Assembly (NCBI GenBank): GCA_018303445.1
Contig: JAGVYE010000005.1
Span: forward strand, 1-43,126
DNA from: Candidatus Woesearchaeota archaeon
GTDB taxonomy: Archaea; Nanobdellota; Nanobdellia; Woesearchaeales; GW2011-AR9
Reading direction: 5' to 3'
Length of the DNA stretch: 43,126 nt
Part shown: positions 7,085-22,179 of the stretch, piece after piece
Numbering within the stretch: position 1 is the first letter of the stretch
How the letters are laid out: each line of letters opens with the position of its first letter
Made by a program: the position numbers and the translations under genes
Notes under the pieces: model-generated
What the model was told of the DNA's origin: nothing
The model's input: the letters and a program-made list of their open reading frames with translations, nothing else
Databases searched by the model: none

Positions 7085-7178
7085 TATAGCGAGCGTACAT
7101 AATAATCGTAATAAAAAGACGCGAGTTATATATGAAAGAACGAGTATAAATTTACGATGATTTCGTTCTTTCAGTATA
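7085..7178. repeat. 94-bp dispersed element, copy 1
   Basis: 92/94 identical by eye to 14681-14774; internal inverted repeats GAAAGAACGA/TCGTTCTTTC and ATCGTAA/TTACGAT. Confidence 0.92.
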
Positions 7179-7222
7179 TTAAGCCAACACTTTTATAAAA
7201 GCTGCTTTTATTTTTGGTATGA

Positions 7223-8077
7223 ATGAAAGAACTCTTTCGCGGCTACCAACAAGTAGAGGAAGGGAGACTTTATGTCCGTCCCGCTGAATTAGAAGGAGTA
7301 AGCATAAGAGAAGTTCTTATTTCTCAGACTTTCATCAAGCCAACGGAAGACGCGGTCATAGCTTATTTATCTGACAAAGCGACAGAAATTCTCCCCCAGC
7401 GGTCATTAGCTCCATCCGCATCCTCAAAGGAGGTGCTTGTTCTTAATTTGGATGGTTTAATTCGACAATTGTCTCTTCCTACGCTTAAGGGTCTTCAAAA
7501 GAAAGAAAAAGAATATACTGATTTTGTAAGGGAGAACACTCCAGCAAGTTCCCTTCCGGAAGGGGAACAGCCTTCTCGCTATGTCCATGTTGGTTACGGT
7601 ATTATCACTGAGGAAGTAATCGCGTTGAATAAACCAAAACGAGCCATTGATTTAGATTTTTATGAGAAAGCTTTCGAGCAACTCTCAGGGAATCTGGGCT
7701 GGAGGGTACTAATGCAGTGGAAGATAGAGCCACAGATTGAGAGTACCTCTGTAACGTCACATTTATTTCGTATCTTGAAGCGTGCCCCAACTCCCCAGTT
7801 CAAATTACCTCCTCGCAAAAAAACTCATCTTCTCGTACATAATAAAACACCAGAGGAAATTTCCGCTCTCCTAAACGTAGTATACAATGGAATCTCTTTT
7901 GCTTTATCTCACAACATCCCCTTGCGTGACACGACTCATTATCGCCTCGAACAAGCGACGATCCAAGCCGTCAGGTCTTTACTTCAGAAGGACTCTCAAG
8001 AACAAGACCTTGCTCACTTCGCAGAAGCTTTTAATTCTGGCAGAACATCTGGTAATGGAGATAATACCCCCAATTAA
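7223..8077 (+). CDS. hypothetical protein (284 aa)
   Basis: Long ORF; no family recognised. Confidence 0.65.
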   Translation: MKELFRGYQQVEEGRLYVRPAELEGVSIREVLISQTFIKPTEDAVIAYLSDKATEILPQRSLAPSASSKEVLVLNLDGLIRQLSLPTLKGLQKKEKEYTDFVRENTPASSLPEGEQPSRYVHVGYGIITEEVIALNKPKRAIDLDFYEKAFEQLSGNLGWRVLMQWKIEPQIESTSVTSHLFRILKRAPTPQFKLPPRKKTHLLVHNKTPEEISALLNVVYNGISFALSHNIPLRDTTHYRLEQATIQAVRSLLQKDSQEQDLAHFAEAFNSGRTSGNGDNTPN

Positions 8078-8081
8078 CTTT

Positions 8082-8360
8082 TCATCCCAATGCTAAATCC
8101 ATTTTTGCAACTTCTGCCGACTGCACTTCCTTGATTTCCTGCATTCTCGCCGCAATCTTGTCAAAATCCTGATCCCCAACATTATACATCGCCAGAACAA
8201 GAACTGCTTTCAACCCAAAAGCAATCGGTTCTTCTTTCACTTGCGTTTCTCCTAACGCTCCTTCTTCTTTAACAATCTCCTGCGCTTTTCTCTTAATATA
8301 CTCCAAATTACTATGCGGAGATTCTGGCATAATTTTAAAAGTAATAACTGCTCTAGCCAT
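8082..8360 (-). CDS. ef1b: translation elongation factor aEF-1 beta
   Basis: 92 aa, FGLKAVLVLAMYNVGDQDFDKIAARMQEIKEVQSAEV, archaeal EF-1beta pattern. Confidence 0.9.
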   Translation of the reverse strand: MARAVITFKIMPESPHSNLEYIKRKAQEIVKEEGALGETQVKEEPIAFGLKAVLVLAMYNVGDQDFDKIAARMQEIKEVQSAEVAKMDLALG

Positions 8361-8371
8361 TGTTGTTGCCC

Positions 8372-8542
8372 TCAGTTTGGCCCTGTAAAATTACATTGTG
8401 GACAGGCATATTTGATGGCATTTACCCGAGCATAAGAACTGCGGACGATTTCATGCTTTCCGCATTGCGGGCAAGAAAAAACCGCTGCTCCTTTATCATT
8501 CTCAATCCTTTTCTTCGTCGAGATACACATTTTTGGTTCCAT
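8372..8542 (-). CDS. archaeal Zn-ribbon RNA-binding protein (COG2888-like)
   Basis: 56 aa read on the minus strand: MEPKMCISTKKRIENDKGAAVFSCPQCGKHEIVRSSYARVNAIKYACPQCNFTGPN; directly upstream of aEF-1beta. Confidence 0.85.
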   Translation of the reverse strand: MEPKMCISTKKRIENDKGAAVFSCPQCGKHEIVRSSYARVNAIKYACPQCNFTGPN

Positions 8543-8634
8543 GTATGAAGCAGAACGGCACTTTATTTATAAAAGTTCTGAGTTTTTCGAATCAAAACTT
8601 TTAAATCTAAAGATAAAAGAAAGCTCTTTTTATT

Positions 8635-9471
8635 ATGAAAACCATTTATTTTCAAAACAATCCAGAACTGCAGCAGAAAATTAAACGTATCCAGAAAGGT
8701 GGCGTACGTTCTCTTCACTTTGTTTCTGATTTCGATAAAACCCTAACCCCGGCCTTTGTTCAGGGAAAAAGCCTTCCGTCTTCCTATGCTTTAATTCGCG
8801 AAGGAAAATATTTAACACCAGAATACGTTTCTCGTGCTTATGCGGAATATGATAAATATCATCCTTACGAGGTTGATCATTATCTCTCCCTCAAAGAAAA
8901 AAGCGCGAAAATGGTTGAATGGTGGGAACATCATTGGCAACTGATGGTTGAATGTGGGATAAATAAAAAGGTCTTTGAAGATATCATCCAGAAAGGCAAA
9001 ATTCAATTGCGTGAAGGAAGTGTCGAACTCTTCTCTTTATTACATGAACATACTATCCCTTTCCTTATTTTTTCCTCTGGGTTAGGAAATCTCATTGAAC
9101 TTTTTCTCAAAAAAAACAAATTTCTCACTCCAAATGTTCATCTTCTCGCGAATTTCTTCACTTTTGACGAGAACGGAATTGCCACGGGATTTAAACGCCC
9201 CCTTATCCACGTTTTTAACAAGAATGAATATGAACTACGTGATACTCCTTATTATCGAGAAGTCAAACAACGTCGCAATGTTATTTTGTTAGGTGATAGC
9301 CTAGGAGATTTAGGGATGATAGAAGGATTACAACATGACACCATTATTCGTATAGGTTTCCTTAATGAAGATAAAGCGTTGCTGGATCATTATTTACAAG
9401 TATTTGATGTTGTCATCACCGAAGATGGTCCAGTAGAAGAAGTAAATAGAATTATAAAAGCGGTCCTTTAG
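8635..9471 (+). CDS. HAD-superfamily pyrimidine 5'-nucleotidase (UMPH-1/cytosolic 5'-nucleotidase III-like)
   Basis: VSDFDKTLTPAF, IFSSGLGNLIE, LLGDSLGDLGMIEG motifs. Confidence 0.75.
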   Translation: MKTIYFQNNPELQQKIKRIQKGGVRSLHFVSDFDKTLTPAFVQGKSLPSSYALIREGKYLTPEYVSRAYAEYDKYHPYEVDHYLSLKEKSAKMVEWWEHHWQLMVECGINKKVFEDIIQKGKIQLREGSVELFSLLHEHTIPFLIFSSGLGNLIELFLKKNKFLTPNVHLLANFFTFDENGIATGFKRPLIHVFNKNEYELRDTPYYREVKQRRNVILLGDSLGDLGMIEGLQHDTIIRIGFLNEDKALLDHYLQVFDVVITEDGPVEEVNRIIKAVL

Positions 9472-10579
9472 GCGGATTCTTTATTTTTTCTCTCACACTA
9501 ATATTACTTCCTTCTACCATAAACCCCACTGGTAAAAATTTCTCTACAACATAAATGTTTGTAAGCGTATGGTTGCTTACTTTGCTTCCCTTTATTGAAG
9601 ATCCTGGTAATAAACTCATATAGAGAACAAGTTGATCTAGGAGATGATAATCAACTGCCGCTCTCGATTTTATTTCTTGCTCCAATTCTTCTGCCGCTTC
9701 TTTGCCAATCTCTTCCGAACTTTTTCCTTTCTCAATCAGGGCGTCTCCCCCTAAGAGGATTGGGTTATCGTAATCAACTTTTCCTTCATTACTGCCTATT
9801 CCCCATAATAAAATTTCTCCGCCGACACTAAACGCTTTTGTGTATTCTACTCGTATATTCACCGGCACGTGATGATGTCGGAGCATATTTTCCGCCGCCA
9901 TTTTGATTCTTTCTCCTACTTCTCTCTCCTGCAATTCTATTGAAACATTGACAATTCCTTTGATTTGTTCTAAAGTTCCCTGCTTCACGAGCACGATTTT
10001 TGCCGTCTTAAAAAGTAATTCTTCTAAAAGTGCAGTATAAGAGCCATATTCATCTAACCTAAACCGGGGTGTAATTTCTACGACAACTTCCCCTCCTCCT
10101 TGGGGATAATAACCTCTTTTTATAATTCTCATTTCAATTTTCTCTACAAACCTTTGTAAATAAGGATAGAGAATGTTTTGCACATAATCAACAGAGGCTT
10201 GCCACTTTCCGCACGTTCCACCTTTAATTTTAAACGTTACTTTTCCAGGTGCAAAAAGTGCTGGCAGCGTAATCGCTTGCAGAAGTAAGGAAATACTTCC
10301 GGCGGTTCCAATATTAAACTCAAAAATTCCTCTCTTAATCTTTCCTGGATTAAAATATAACTCCTGTGTTCCAATCTCTACTTCATTCGTCTTTGCGCCA
10401 CAAAATTCTTTTAACGCTTTTATGGCCGTCAGATGCTGCGCTTTTAATCCCGGTTCAGATCTTCCCGCTCTGATATTTTTTACGACAAATCCCCGTCCTG
10501 TTAATGTTGACAAAGCTAACGCTGTTCTTACTAAGGCTCCTCCTCCTTCTCCATAATTCCCATCGAGAGAAATCATCAC
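9452..10579 (-). CDS. rtcA: RNA 3'-terminal phosphate cyclase
   Basis: DGNYGEGGGALVRTALALS, PGLKAQHLTAIKAL, GTAGSISLLLQ, YYPQGGGEV. Confidence 0.95.
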   Translation of the reverse strand: MMISLDGNYGEGGGALVRTALALSTLTGRGFVVKNIRAGRSEPGLKAQHLTAIKALKEFCGAKTNEVEIGTQELYFNPGKIKRGIFEFNIGTAGSISLLLQAITLPALFAPGKVTFKIKGGTCGKWQASVDYVQNILYPYLQRFVEKIEMRIIKRGYYPQGGGEVVVEITPRFRLDEYGSYTALLEELLFKTAKIVLVKQGTLEQIKGIVNVSIELQEREVGERIKMAAENMLRHHHVPVNIRVEYTKAFSVGGEILLWGIGSNEGKVDYDNPILLGGDALIEKGKSSEEIGKEAAEELEQEIKSRAAVDYHLLDQLVLYMSLLPGSSIKGSKVSNHTLTNIYVVEKFLPVGFMVEGSNISVREKIKNPPKGPLL

Positions 10580-10580
10580 T

Positions 10581-11183
10581 TTAAGATCCCCCTCTTACCT
10601 TCTTAATTATTTTTTGGGGAATAAGATGCCCCATTTTTTCTTTTTTTGTTTTAAGGTATTGGTAATTATGTTTACTAGGGGGTGTGATCTGTGGCACTCG
10701 CTCTACTTTGATACCAAAGCCTTCCAGCGCTTTTTGTTTTTGGATGTTGTTTGTGAGCAGTTTTACTTCTTTGATGTTCAGATCCCTTAAAATTTCTGCA
10801 GCGATTTGGAAATCCCGCTCATCATCTTTAAAGCCAAGTTTAAGATTTGCCTCTACTGTATCCATTCCTTTTTCTTGCAGAGCATATGCTTTTATTTTAT
10901 TAAATAACCCTATTCCCCTTCCTTCTTGTCGTAAGTACAAAATCACACCCCCTTCCTTGCCAACTCTTTGGAGCGCATCTGTCAATTGGGCTTGACAATC
11001 GCATTTCAGGGAATGAAAAACGTCGCCCGTCATACACTCCGAATGAATGCGAAGAAGATGCTTTTGGTGCGTTTTTTTTAAAAGTGCAAGATGCTCCTTT
11101 CCGTCCGGCATTTGGTAGACAATGATTGAAAATACGCCAAATTTTGTCGGTAATGTCGCCGTTGCTTTTTTATAAGATCTCAT
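10581..11183 (-). CDS. ribA: GTP cyclohydrolase II
   Basis: RIHSECMTGDVFHSLKCDCQAQL, LYLRQEGRGIGLFNKIKAYALQ. Confidence 0.93.
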   Translation of the reverse strand: MRSYKKATATLPTKFGVFSIIVYQMPDGKEHLALLKKTHQKHLLRIHSECMTGDVFHSLKCDCQAQLTDALQRVGKEGGVILYLRQEGRGIGLFNKIKAYALQEKGMDTVEANLKLGFKDDERDFQIAAEILRDLNIKEVKLLTNNIQKQKALEGFGIKVERVPQITPPSKHNYQYLKTKKEKMGHLIPQKIIKKVRGGS

Positions 11184-11274
11184 TCTAAAGTCCTATTATC
11201 GTTCGTTATAAAAGTTTTTTTCTTTTTTGTAACAAAAACCTTAATAAAACCACTCTCTTTTTTTCTAGATTTGT

Positions 11275-11393
11275 GGGGACGTAGTATAACCTGGTAGAAT
11301 TGGGGCCTCCAGTAATGGAAGATTGAGCATAAGCGATGACAATACTTTCCCTGAAGCCAGCCTTAGATCCGCGTTCAAATCGCGGCGTCCCCA
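11275..11393 (+). tRNA. tRNA-Trp (anticodon CCA, 11309-11311) with 46-nt intron (about 11313-11358)
   Basis: Acceptor GGGGACG/CGTCCCC perfect; T-arm CCGCG-TTCAAAT-CGCGG; anticodon stem GGGGC/GCCTT; 73-nt mature length after removing the intron at 37/38. Confidence 0.9.
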
Positions 11394-11394
11394 C

Positions 11395-11826
11395 TCATTT
11401 AAAAATCATACTTTCCCCTTCTTTTAACCCTATCCTTCTCACTTCTCCAGCTCCAAGTTCTAAGACATAGAGAGATTTTTTGAGTGGGGCCAGTAATGGG
11501 CATTTTTCTCTTGTGCATGGTTCAGCTCCTTCAGATATAAAAACAACTTTTTTCTCTTCATCAAGCCAAATAATATCTAATGGAATCAATGTATTTTTCA
11601 TCCAAAATGGATAGAAGTCTTCTTCGGAAAAGATAAAAAGCATTCCTTGATTGGCTTCTAACATTTCCCTAAACATCAATCCTTTGGCTCGTTCTTGCCC
11701 CGTTTCTACAATCTCTACATGATAACAAAAATTCTTGAAGCACACTTCACGGAAGTCATTTTTTTGAGTAATACATGAAAGTAAGAAGAGCGAGAGAACC
11801 ACAAAGAGTATTTTTTTTCTCAACAT
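11395..11826 (-). CDS. DUF192 family lipoprotein
   Basis: Lipobox signal MLRKKILFVVLSLFLLSC; ERAKGLMFREML...GMLFIFSEEDFYPFWMKNTLIPLDIIWLDE. Confidence 0.9.
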   Translation of the reverse strand: MLRKKILFVVLSLFLLSCITQKNDFREVCFKNFCYHVEIVETGQERAKGLMFREMLEANQGMLFIFSEEDFYPFWMKNTLIPLDIIWLDEEKKVVFISEGAEPCTREKCPLLAPLKKSLYVLELGAGEVRRIGLKEGESMIFK

Positions 11827-11904
11827 ACAACTTAAAATTATCGTCTTAATATAAAACCTTCTTCTCGCATAATTTATAAACTACTACGAACTGATAACTT
11901 CCTT

Positions 11905-13098
11905 ATGTTCAAAAAAAGAGGAACGCCCCGAGCAGCGGGCGGTTTTTTATCTCAACACCATTTTCTTACCGCCTCTTCGATGTTAACGGGCACGGTTATT
12001 GGTGCCGGTATTCTAGGCATACCATATGTTGTAGCTAAAGCTGGTTTTTGGTATGGGGCGATCTTAATTTTTCTTTTAGGATTGGCCTATTTATTCCTTC
12101 ATCTTTCCCTAGGGGAGATTGTCATACGGACTAAAAAACAATATCAGCTTACTGGTTATGCCGGGAAATATCTTGGGCCTCTTGGAAAAAAAATCATGAC
12201 TTTGTCTTTGTTTATTACTCTTCATGGGGCGTTGATCGCCTATCTTATCGGAGAAGGGGCAACTCTTCATTTTCTTTTCAAAATTGGTTCGCCGTTGATG
12301 TATTCGCTTCTTTTTTTCCTCATCGCTTCCTTCATCGTCAGTCGGGGAATTAAAACTACCGGAAGGACAGAGCTGCTTCTCACCATCGTTCTAGTTATTG
12401 TTGTTCTCTTCATCGGCTTGTTCTCTTTAGAAAACATAAACACCGCTGAATTAACTTTTTTCCATCCTCTTTTCTTCTTTCTTCCTTATGGGGTAATCCT
12501 TTTTGCTTTTCATGGAACTCCCGCCATTCCAGAAATGCAAGAAGAGTTGGGGAAGAACAAAAAACATCTACGTAAAGCCATTCTCCTTGGATCTTCTATC
12601 CCTATTGTAGTATATCTTCTCTTTAGTTTTGTTATTGTAGGAATAGTTGGCCTGGAAAATTTTGAGAAACTTGCGCCGAATGAGAGAATCGCCACCATCG
12701 CCCTTAGTATTTATTCCTCTACTCTCTTAGGATATCTCGCCAATATTCTCGCGATGTTATCGATGTTCACTTCTTACCTTACTATTTCCCTGGCCCTGCG
12801 GGAAATTTATGAATATGATTATAATCTCTCCCGTCGTACTGCTTTCATCTTAACCTCACTGATCCCTTTACTCATCGTTCTTTTTAATGTAACTTCTTTT
12901 ATCACGATTATTATGATTACCGGGGCCTTTATCGGCGGCTTGGAAGGAAGCTTAATTATTCTCATGTTCTGGAAAGCAAAAAAAAATGGCGATCGCATCC
13001 CTGAATACTCATTAAAATTCCCTTATTTTCTTGGGCTTATCCTTCTGTTGCTCTTTGTTTTAGGTATAATCTACCAGTTTTGGGACTTTTTTTTCTAA
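11905..13098 (+). CDS. aromatic/neutral amino-acid permease-like transporter
   Basis: GTVIGAGILGIPYVVAKAGF, multi-TM protein of about 397 aa. Confidence 0.85.
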   Translation: MFKKRGTPRAAGGFLSQHHFLTASSMLTGTVIGAGILGIPYVVAKAGFWYGAILIFLLGLAYLFLHLSLGEIVIRTKKQYQLTGYAGKYLGPLGKKIMTLSLFITLHGALIAYLIGEGATLHFLFKIGSPLMYSLLFFLIASFIVSRGIKTTGRTELLLTIVLVIVVLFIGLFSLENINTAELTFFHPLFFFLPYGVILFAFHGTPAIPEMQEELGKNKKHLRKAILLGSSIPIVVYLLFSFVIVGIVGLENFEKLAPNERIATIALSIYSSTLLGYLANILAMLSMFTSYLTISLALREIYEYDYNLSRRTAFILTSLIPLLIVLFNVTSFITIIMITGAFIGGLEGSLIILMFWKAKKNGDRIPEYSLKFPYFLGLILLLLFVLGIIYQFWDFFF

Positions 13099-13174
13099 TT
13101 TTCTCTTCTTTCGGATAAAAACAGTTCCCTAAAATTTATAACTTATAACTATTCTCACATAGTCCTCTAGTGTA

Positions 13175-13214
13175 GCTACTTTAAAATACTGAAAGTAGCG
13201 AAACCTTTATATAA
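13175..13214 (+). promoter_or_regulatory. Putative archaeal promoter (TATA TTTATATA 13206-13213) preceded by 8-bp inverted repeat
   Basis: GCTACTTT-N9-AAAGTAGC (13175-13199) then GAAACCTTTATATAA; SD GGAGG at about 13260 before ATG 13274. Confidence 0.6.
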
Positions 13215-13273
13215 CACCGAGGTTTGCAACTATAAAAGATACTCAATCTTAAAAGATTTGGAGGAAGATAAAA

Positions 13274-14629
13274 ATGAAAAAGTTGGTAAGTATTTTGGCG
13301 TTGTTTGTTTTCAGCCTGTTAAGCCTTTCTCTGGTAAATGCAGCTTTCATACCAGGCCAAAACTTAACGGTAGAAAACGTACAAGTTAATGACCTTAGTG
13401 TTCAATTACTTTCCCAGACTGAAGTGAGCACTTCTGGCGTAGATGCCCGGTCTGGTGTAGTTGTAGAAGAAGGTGAAGAAGTTGAAGTGGAAATGGTGTT
13501 GGTTTCAACTGCCAATATTGAAAATGTGCAAGTTGAAGCTGAAATTCGCGGCTATGAGTACGATGACTATGAAGATGTCTCTGATAGAGTTCATGTCTTT
13601 GACCTTCAAGGAACCGCTACTGCTCCTTCGCGAAAGAAAGTAAGCCTTCACTTAACATTGCCACGGCAATTAGATGAGGATCGTTATCTATTGCGCGTCA
13701 CTGTTGATGATAAAGACAGTCCATCACTTGTTGGCTATGTTGTATTACAAGTAGAGCCAACACGACATGGTATCGATGTAGCTGATGTAGTCTTTTCGCC
13801 TGGAACGACAGTTCGTGCTGGCCGTTCTTTACTTGCGACAGTACTCTTAGAAAATTATGGTGACAGAGCAGAACGGGACGTTAAAGTTGTCGTAGAAATC
13901 CCTGAACTTGGCGTCCGTGCTGCAGAATTCGTCGATAAAGTAGACGTTGACAGTACTGTCGATACTGCTGCTGGCAACCGTGTTGGGAGCAATATTGATT
14001 ACGAAGATGTGCCTGAGATGTTCCTTCCTATTCCTGTTACCGCAAAAGCCGGGGAATATGAAGTTGTCGTTCGTGTATTCTACGATAATCTTCGTGAAGA
14101 AATCATACAGAAACATACCATCAACGTTGTTGTAAACCCTATGTTTGCACCCACAGAAGAAGGGGAGCGACGCTTAGTGCTAGCTGTAGGTCCACAAGCC
14201 CAAACTGTTAAAGTTGGCGAAAAAGCCATGTACGCTATTGCTTTAACTAATGAAGGAAGAACCTCTGAAGCCTACACTATGGAAGTAGTAAGTGGTGATT
14301 GGGCCACAGCTACTTTAAGCAAAGCACTGGTTGTACTTGCTTCTGGGCGGAATGAAGTCGTCTACGTAGACGTTACCCCTAAAGCTGATGCGACTCTCGG
14401 CAGTCATGTTGTAACGGTTGCCGTGAAGAAAGGCGCGGAAGTTTTAGAAACTGTAACCTTAAATGCTAATGTTGCTCCTGCGTCTCAACCACAAGGAGAA
14501 ACTATTAGCTTGCGTAACGGCTTAGAAATCGCCTTAATCGTCCTTGTCGTACTGTTGGTAATCATTGGCTTGATTGTTGGTTTCAGCAGATTACGTAAAG
14601 ATGACGGTGAGGAACAAACCTACTACTAA
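13274..14629 (+). CDS. secreted, C-terminally membrane-anchored protein with Ig-like/NEW3-CARDB-like repeats
   Basis: Signal peptide, beta-rich repeats, C-terminal TM LEIALIVLVVLLVIIGLIVGF plus charged tail. Confidence 0.75.
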   Translation: MKKLVSILALFVFSLLSLSLVNAAFIPGQNLTVENVQVNDLSVQLLSQTEVSTSGVDARSGVVVEEGEEVEVEMVLVSTANIENVQVEAEIRGYEYDDYEDVSDRVHVFDLQGTATAPSRKKVSLHLTLPRQLDEDRYLLRVTVDDKDSPSLVGYVVLQVEPTRHGIDVADVVFSPGTTVRAGRSLLATVLLENYGDRAERDVKVVVEIPELGVRAAEFVDKVDVDSTVDTAAGNRVGSNIDYEDVPEMFLPIPVTAKAGEYEVVVRVFYDNLREEIIQKHTINVVVNPMFAPTEEGERRLVLAVGPQAQTVKVGEKAMYAIALTNEGRTSEAYTMEVVSGDWATATLSKALVVLASGRNEVVYVDVTPKADATLGSHVVTVAVKKGAEVLETVTLNANVAPASQPQGETISLRNGLEIALIVLVVLLVIIGLIVGFSRLRKDDGEEQTYY

Positions 14630-14680
14630 GGTAGGAAACTTCCTCCAAATCTTTTTATTTTTTTCTTCTCTTTTCCTTTT

Positions 14681-14774
14681 TATAGCGAGCGTACATAATA
14701 ATTGTAATAAAAAGACGCGAGTTATATATGAAAGAACGAGTATAAATTTACGATGATTTCGTTCTTCCAGTATA
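14681..14774. repeat. 94-bp dispersed element, copy 2
   Basis: Two substitutions relative to 7085-7178, same orientation. Confidence 0.92.
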
Positions 14775-21238: not shown

Positions 21239-21326
21239 AGCCCCTGCCGCGATTTGAACGCGGGACCTGCGCTTAACTCTTTAAACTAATACGAGAGCGC
21301 CGCTCTAGCCACTGAGCCACAGGGGC
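21239..21326 (-). tRNA. tRNA-Thr (anticodon CGT) with about 15-nt intron (21275-21289)
   Basis: Minus strand: acceptor GCCCCTG/CAGGGGC, T-arm CCGCG-TTCAAAT-CGCGG, anticodon stem GCGCT/AGCGC, CT-CGT-A then intron TTAGTTTAAAGAGTT. Confidence 0.92.
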
Positions 21327-21393: not shown

Positions 21394-22179
21394 TTGGTAG
21401 TGTAATCATTTGACTGATAACCTTTCTAGATTATATTCTTGCAAAAATAATCCTGTTACTTTAATGTGATTAGCTATAGACTTGGAGAAAGAGCACGTCT
21501 TTCTGACATATCTTCCAAGTCTTTGACGAATCACATTATTCACAGATTCAACTTGTGAGGTTTCACCGGTTTCTTTGCCACATTTATGGTGCAATGTCTT
21601 TGGGAGATTATCATAAGCTTCCCAGAAGTCACTTCTGCTTTGACATTTTTTGTACTCTTCTGGAACTTTAGAATAAAGATCTTTAAATGCCATATAACTT
21701 CGATCTCCAATATGAAATGCTACTACTTGTCTGTTTCTTCTAAGAACCGCAAGCTATAATCATTGCTTGTTTCTTTTGTCGTGAACAAAAGACCACATTT
21801 TATCATACTCAATGATGTCATTGTATTGAGCTGGTGAGAGTGTAGAACTAAGAGGCATCAGCTCTTTTTTTTCCAACCAACGAAGAATGGTTGAAACAGC
21901 TACTCTATACACTCTGCGTGTGCCACGCAGAATTGAGCGTTCATGATAAGAAGGAAGAATTTCTTCTTTTCGTTCTGCAGTGTAGAACTGTGTTGTGTTG
22001 AGAGTTCGATAACAATCACAGTCTTTGTAGTGATACTTCTGCTTGCCACTAGAAGTAAAATCCAGTCATTACAATATTATTGCTATTGCACTTCATGCAA
22101 ACCTCTTTTTTTGCCATAAATGACAGAAAGAGGAGGGAGAATAAAAGGTGTTCTATCAGTCAGTTAAGAACACTACCAA
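21394..22179 (-). mobile_element. Decayed IS1-family insertion sequence, about 786 bp
   Basis: Imperfect terminal inverted repeats TTGGTAGTGTAATCATTTGACTGATA / TTGGTAGTGTTCTTAACTGACTGATA (21/26 match) bracketing an IS1-like transposase; no clear target-site duplication. Confidence 0.88.
21406..22117 (-). pseudogene. IS1-family transposase pseudogene (one +1 frameshift and two in-frame nonsense codons)
   Basis: Fragments: MAKKEVCMKCNSNNIVMTGFYF | SGKQKYHYKDCDCYRTLNTTQF...EYDKMWSFVHDKRNKQ-TGA-L-TAG-LAVLRRNRQVVAFHIGDRSYMAFKDLY...CGKETGETSQVESVNNVIRQRLGRYVRKTCSFSKS. Confidence 0.88.

Follow-up and report, generated by a model that had tools for sequence, protein, structure and literature searches.

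The window analysed here is a 43,126-nucleotide stretch of DNA from a Woesearchaeota archaeon whose genome assembly (G000) comprises 1.22 Mb in 54 contigs and is 95% complete. Two 94-bp copies of a non-coding element lie in it on the same strand, at positions 7085-7178 and 14681-14774, 7.6 kb apart. The copies are identical at 92 of 94 positions (BLAST E value of copy 2 against copy 1, 4e-41), the two differences being located at 7107 (C/T) and 7171 (T/C), and both are sharply bounded, beginning and ending with TATA. Our re-comparison agrees with the preliminary description, which had reported two near-identical copies in the same orientation with sharp ends, 45-65 bp upstream of the + strand genes at 7223 and 14839; the re-measured gaps are 44 bp for copy 1 and 64 bp for copy 2. 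The stem TGAAAGAACGAG/TTCGTTCTTTCA and the complementarity between ATCGTAA and TTACGAT were also present as described there, but a second hairpin, in the left half, had been overlooked: positions 7085-7095 pair with 7120-7130 (TATAGC-GA-GCG / CGC-GA-GTTATA, with two G.A mismatches). The features are the following, the strand of each copy being the orientation of the covariance model introduced below:

7085-7178, + strand: copy 1 of the element, 94 bp
7085-7112, + strand: left terminal inverted repeat of copy 1, TATAGCGAGCGTACATAATAATCGTAAT, which matches the right end and IS630 ends position by position
7151-7178, - strand: right terminal inverted repeat of copy 1, reverse complement TATACTGAAAGAACGAAATCATCGTAAA, which matches the left end and IS630 ends position by position
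7085-7095, + strand: 5′ arm of hairpin 1, partner 7120-7130, with two G.A mismatches in this subfamily
7120-7130, + strand: 3′ arm of hairpin 1
7133-7144, + strand: 5′ arm of hairpin 2, partner 7162-7173
7162-7173, + strand: 3′ arm of hairpin 2, inside the right terminal repeat
7105-7111, + strand: ATCGTAA, putative inner recognition block in the left terminal repeat, with its complement at 7152-7158
7152-7158, + strand: TTACGAT, putative inner recognition block in the right terminal repeat
14681-14774, + strand: copy 2 of the element, 94 bp, with the anatomy of copy 1
14681-14708 and 14747-14774: terminal repeats of copy 2
14681-14691/14716-14726 and 14729-14740/14758-14769: hairpin arms of copy 2

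Elsewhere in the window, a fragment of an IS1-family transposase was observed at 21409-21693 (- strand), which shares 94% identity over 67 amino acids with a second fragment of the same family (L234:1050-1328, - strand). A tRNA gene lies at 21239-21326 (- strand; Rfam, 54.9 bits), for which ARAGORN gave no clear anticodon ('cgta'), perhaps owing to an intron or an unusual loop.

Further copies were found by blastn in the source genome and in relatives, a check that the preliminary description had called for. Two more full copies are present in G000 (C29:41434-41527, 98% identity, and C8:48519-48613, 93%), together with truncated ones. A covariance model, built from an alignment of twelve full-length copies, was then scanned over about 1.20 of the 1.22 Mb of G000, taken as partly overlapping stretches, and reported 12 places with E<0.01. 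In total the genome carries four full copies, 93-100% identical, and about eight diverged or truncated ones, beside unrelated genes. One diverged copy (G000:C2, around 1350-1550 of L030) carries an additional hairpin, CTTCCCCGTTAGGGAAG, in the left half and is adjoined by a palindromic unit, GGTACAATTC...GAATTGTGCC, which also occurs near copies in genome G017.

Relatives in other genera were recovered by BLAST and by pattern search, and the named records that matched convincingly were from Woesearchaeota, with one labelled Nanoarchaeota. With the covariance model the element was detected in 118 of the 359 Woesearchaeales genomes, often in many copies per genome, and the carriers belong to 83 of the 222 genera in the order. 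The copy numbers are lower bounds, because filtering was stricter in this order-wide search and no more than 11-15 candidates were scored in any one genome. The length is nearly always 92-97 nt. In a phylum-wide sample, 47 of the 51 positive genomes fell within Woesearchaeales and four outside, and no match to the element was found among the viral contigs, phages and plasmids searched. In genome G166 eight copies have equal scores, which suggests a recent burst. The sharp borders, the copies on other contigs and the spread over 83 genera refute a simple segmental duplication within the genome, an explanation that would cover a near-identical pair 7.6 kb apart but not similarity that ends at the element borders, and to which we assign a negligible probability.

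About 100 copies were fetched for comparison. Across genomes they lie in tandem, convergent and divergent gaps beside unrelated genes, with no conserved neighbour or orientation, and this distribution lends no support to the earlier option of a shared regulatory leader. Convergent gaps were modestly overrepresented (19/82, against 63/515 in G000; P=0.014), the baseline being taken from G000 only.

The layout of the element, read from the left, is TATA, a variable stretch, G11, the bases A17, T19 and T22, and a variable 6-base block at 22-27, after which come a stretch complementary to the outer bases, TATA at the centre and the mirror arrangement rightward. The terminal inverted repeats are about 28 bp long, each beginning with TATA, and TATA, G11, A17, T19 and T22 are conserved in both ends; nearly all copies start with TATA, and the right end is TATA in 91 of 101 copies. 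The left and right repeats of a copy co-vary in two blocks, 11-13 and 23-27, which lie one helical turn apart, and not at the positions in between. This two-block pattern is suggestive of two sites of contact with a DNA-binding protein and not of base pairing.

This bears directly on the H-type pseudoknot put forward in the preliminary description. When measured by fixed-position tests, the 6-base loop blocks were complementary at one fixed register, with 5.1/7 Watson-Crick pairs there and about 2 when the register was shifted, and the complement was perfect in 29 of 94 elements, whereas cross-pairing the blocks of different elements gave a mean of 6.5 and a maximum of 13. The complementarity is real, and it co-varies. 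In double-stranded DNA it amounts to an inverted repeat. However, both ends of IS630 transposons of about 1 kb match each other at positions 11-13 and 23-27 as well, so that the loop-loop complement is explained by terminal-repeat identity, and the pseudoknot RNA was rejected on this ground. A strongly co-varying 'kissing loop' can thus be merely two transposon ends.

The comparison with IS630 rests on several lines of evidence. Matches to Pfam DDE_3 (IS630 family) occur in 41 of the 359 Woesearchaeales genomes, and these transposases were assigned to IS630 by DDE_3 and by NCBIfam transpos_IS630, with scores below the strict NCBIfam cut-off owing to the division of each gene between two frames. 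Both ends were found for IS630 elements of 1,105 bp (G063) and 1,062 bp (G153), and the autonomous IS630 elements of related genomes, about 1.0-1.1 kb long, have the same terminal pattern as the small element. The IS630 ends were also located independently of the model of the small element, by the inverted repeats of the IS elements themselves; left-right identity was 94% in block 11-13, where different IS elements agree at 47%, and 88% in block 23-27, where they agree at 38%. With a profile of the small element, 22 of 24 IS630 ends ranked among the best 2% of TATA-like sites, and the two exceptions both belong to L286, where the chosen frame is probably two bases off. An IS630 end near a DDE_3 gene in G062, TATAGCTAGTGACATAAATATTTATACAAATC, matches an end of the small element at 29 of 32 positions. 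In G063, the one genome with an end-for-end match between the small element and its own IS630, the resident copy L138 was the best match for both IS630 ends, the left IS end pairing with the right end of L138 and the right IS end with its left end.

The two kinds of element also tend to occur together, since the small element is present in 21 of 41 IS630-positive genomes and in 97 of 318 others (P=0.013), a modest association without correction for relatedness or completeness. Most carriers have no IS630 transposase (it is present in 21 of 118), so in these the partner is absent, lost or unassembled. This includes G000, in whose 95% complete assembly no DDE_3 match or IS630 transposase was detectable. 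The exact subfamily of the window matched none of the IS630 elements found, and the right end in G000 (TATACTGAAAG...) is unlike the common IS630 start (TATAG).

Two other transposase families were considered as partners. In G000 a truncated copy (C3:581-648) lies 67 bp from a fragment of a DDE_Tnp_1 transposase (PF01609; C3:116-514), which we read as an IS inserted into a copy of the element; PF01609 was discarded as a partner, the copy being cut off beside this fragment and the other PF01609 loci having no convincing matching ends. The second candidate is a non-autonomous IS200/IS605 element (PATE) with subterminal hairpins, moved by single-strand transposition. Hairpins near both ends and insertion beside a short motif with no clear duplication would be expected of such an element, but a Y1 transposase is absent from G000 and from 5 of 8 other carriers tested, TnpB gave one sub-threshold match, and the ends are dyad-symmetric, unlike those of IS605, and match IS630 ends instead. 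The few Y1 loci were inspected and had no matching ends; the IS630 match rules out this origin for practical purposes, and we regard it as extremely improbable.

Evidence on the target came from a nested copy. The copy L018 (G017) interrupts another member of the family, of which an uninterrupted relative exists (L026). When the flanks of L018 are joined and a single TA is left between them, they align with L026 over 94 bases without gaps at 95.7% identity. The pair reads GATG-TA-AAAA in the empty and GATG-TA-[insert]-TA-AAAA in the filled form, although a TA-ended insert placed beside a TA gives the same sequence. This is the single empty site found. In addition, copies abut at a common TATA in G000 (C33) and elsewhere. 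The L018/L026 pair and the abutting copies fit a TA target. A few copies (L018, L103, L092, L084 and the second copy of L099) have a right end other than TATA, and these often match their left flank over 3-4 bases (TGTA/TGTA, TTTA/TTTA, CATA/CATA), which exceeds the expectation from TA only. A target duplication longer than TA was not adopted, since most copies are without such 3-4-base matches, and those seen in a few copies (for example TGTA/TGTA) may be due to chance.

Taken together, the element is short (<~300 bp), non-coding, multi-copy and dispersed, it has terminal inverted repeats in common with an IS630 element, and its TATA ends and the empty site point to a TA target, as in IS630/Tc1-mariner transposons. 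We conclude that the 94-bp element is very probably a MITE, i.e., an IS630-type (Tc1/mariner) transposon that is non-coding and non-autonomous. Of the three early options, that of a non-autonomous element is the right one. In the mechanism that we propose, the element would be served in trans by an IS630-family transposase, which would bind two blocks in each end (about 11-13 and 17-27), cut the element out and insert it again at a TA dinucleotide, which would be duplicated. Both the movement by an IS630 transposase and the reading of the two-base overlap as a duplication are inferred.

Terminal-repeat identity accounts for the match between the two ends, and a second kind of co-variation, which the assignment as a MITE leaves unexplained, lies within each half. 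Each terminal repeat makes up the outer portion of a separate hairpin, and the two hairpins stand side by side. Two-sided changes were observed in 22 of the 23 stem pairs. In the A2 set of copies, the share of paired cells was 91.7% (70.1% in shuffles), and changes on both sides were seen in 825 cells, against 284 +/- 24 in shuffles. Since the A2 alignment was fitted to the covariance model, the arms were also tested on the raw sequences: the left arm paired with its own partner at 7.7 of 9 positions and with the partners of other elements at 5.0 +/- 0.1, and the right arm at 9.7 of 10 and 6.6 +/- 0.1, respectively (60 distinct left and 55 distinct right arms). The minimum-energy fold was the two-hairpin fold in 88 of 94 cases. 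Further copies and co-variation, whose absence the preliminary description had named as a refutation, are both present.

The hairpins are largely specific to the MITE, because 16 of 18 IS630 ends have no internal complement of their outer 13 bases beyond that of shuffled sequence, while the left ends of the MITE average 11.2/13. Compensatory changes maintain the two-hairpin architecture in dozens of subfamilies, and it is seldom seen at IS630 ends. The two IS630 ends with an internal complement (10/13), the right end of L240 at 2450 (G346) and the left end of L287 at 2722 (G039), with TAGCAAAAGAC...GTCTTTTGCTTA, are possible intermediates between IS and MITE.

One explanation of these hairpins is neutral. 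The outer repeat would have folded back at the origin of the MITE, and template switching during replication would have kept the palindromes perfect. Such quasi-palindrome correction is established for imperfect palindromes. It yields two-sided changes without selection and requires no transcript, and we give this explanation a little less than an even chance. Loops of 15-25 nt, a length that stays within 92-97 nt although about 60 distinct arms occur, and the asymmetry of the stem near-misses, which is unexpected from a strand-symmetric process, speak against it, but none of the three is decisive. On the model strand G.T exceeded A.C by 29 to 9 when counted per cluster (P=0.0017), an excess that may be inflated, as a model favouring G-U was used to find and orient the copies. 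The excess is a hint of folding as single strand or RNA. Between selection on single-strand folding (in a transcript, or in ssDNA during replication or transposition) and neutral palindrome correction, we consider the former somewhat more likely. That the covarying hairpins are a working structure on transposon ends, in which an exposed or transcribed single strand folds and does something, is a tentative proposal that we hold to be less likely than not. If it were true, possible roles would be to keep the terminal repeats from pairing, to protect or process host transcripts, or to aid the use of the element by the transposase, and a sequence of about 95 nt would be under selection both as a DNA end and as a single strand throughout an archaeal order.

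A rival explanation would make the element primarily a functional RNA, a small RNA or leader with two hairpins and a loop-loop kissing interaction, spread by copying. The strong co-variation of the hairpins and of the loop-loop complement, the predominance of the two-hairpin fold and the G.T excess would all agree with it. However, the loop-loop block is accounted for by terminal-repeat identity and is found in the 1-kb IS630 elements, the G.T excess may owe part of its size to the model, no gene neighbour or orientation is conserved, and Rfam, searched at the gathering score and at E<=0.5, returned nothing relevant for the element. We regard this as very improbable, although the covarying hairpins leave room for RNA folding. 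The MITE is a clean case in which two sources of co-variation can be separated, one being the reading of the terminal repeats by a transposase and the other whatever maintains the hairpins.

Other dispersed repeats were observed in G000. A second non-coding family of about 200 bp has the ends GTATGTATTAAGTC...GACTTAATACATAC and copies 85-93% alike, and there are at least four further families of 165-205 bp, three of them with clear inverted ends (GTAAGTAATATGTC, GGCTTCATCCAATAAAT and GGCTCTGTAGAAAATC), the L213/L218 pair being less clear:

L195:12987-13204, L196:13746-13529, L207:14151-14354, L217:4672-4853, L227:2570-2748 and L212:12165-12339: copies of the second family, about 200 bp
L166:1216-1419 and L207:11084-11288: family of 165-205 bp
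L193:5478, L212:9954, L158:2621 and L225:7883: family of 165-205 bp
L213:18402 and L218:5833: family of 165-205 bp
L196:11013 and L214:18467: family of 165-205 bp

A literature search that covered few subscription journals returned no report of a MITE for Woesearchaeota or other DPANN archaea, and the family looks like an apparently undescribed, order-wide load of mobile elements in very small genomes. Among known systems, the PATEs derived from IS200/IS605 and the REP/RAYT elements are likewise small, hairpin-bearing and non-autonomous. They are moved by Y1 transposases, which are absent from G000 and from 5 of the 8 other carriers tested, and their ends are not inverted repeats. The ends of the Correia elements also begin with TATAG. 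These Correia/NEMIS elements of Neisseria resemble the MITE in their size (~107 or ~155 bp), TA termini, 24-bp terminal repeats and structure, but form an end-to-end stem instead of two hairpins (PMC2229807), and other bacterial repeats form such 5′-3′ end stems too (PMC2229807). The CIR elements of Caulobacter have two long inverted repeats, folded into two arms with a linker between them, but they are without the terminal repeats of a MITE and expose a GANTC motif, and no IS630 link is reported for them in that source (PMC2229807). The nearest published relative in kind is RUP of Streptococcus pneumoniae, a 107-bp element with ends like those of IS630-Spn1 and a TA target (PMC3049150, PMC2229807). 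RUP shares with the MITE a length of about 100 bp, an AT-rich, non-coding and mostly intergenic nature, terminal repeats that match an IS630 element, and an inferred mobilisation in trans. The terminal repeats of RUP pair together in the predicted fold (PMC3049150), whereas the ends of the Woesearchaeales MITE fold singly, and RUP is a single family from a single bacterial species, while the MITE spans an archaeal order in many subfamilies.
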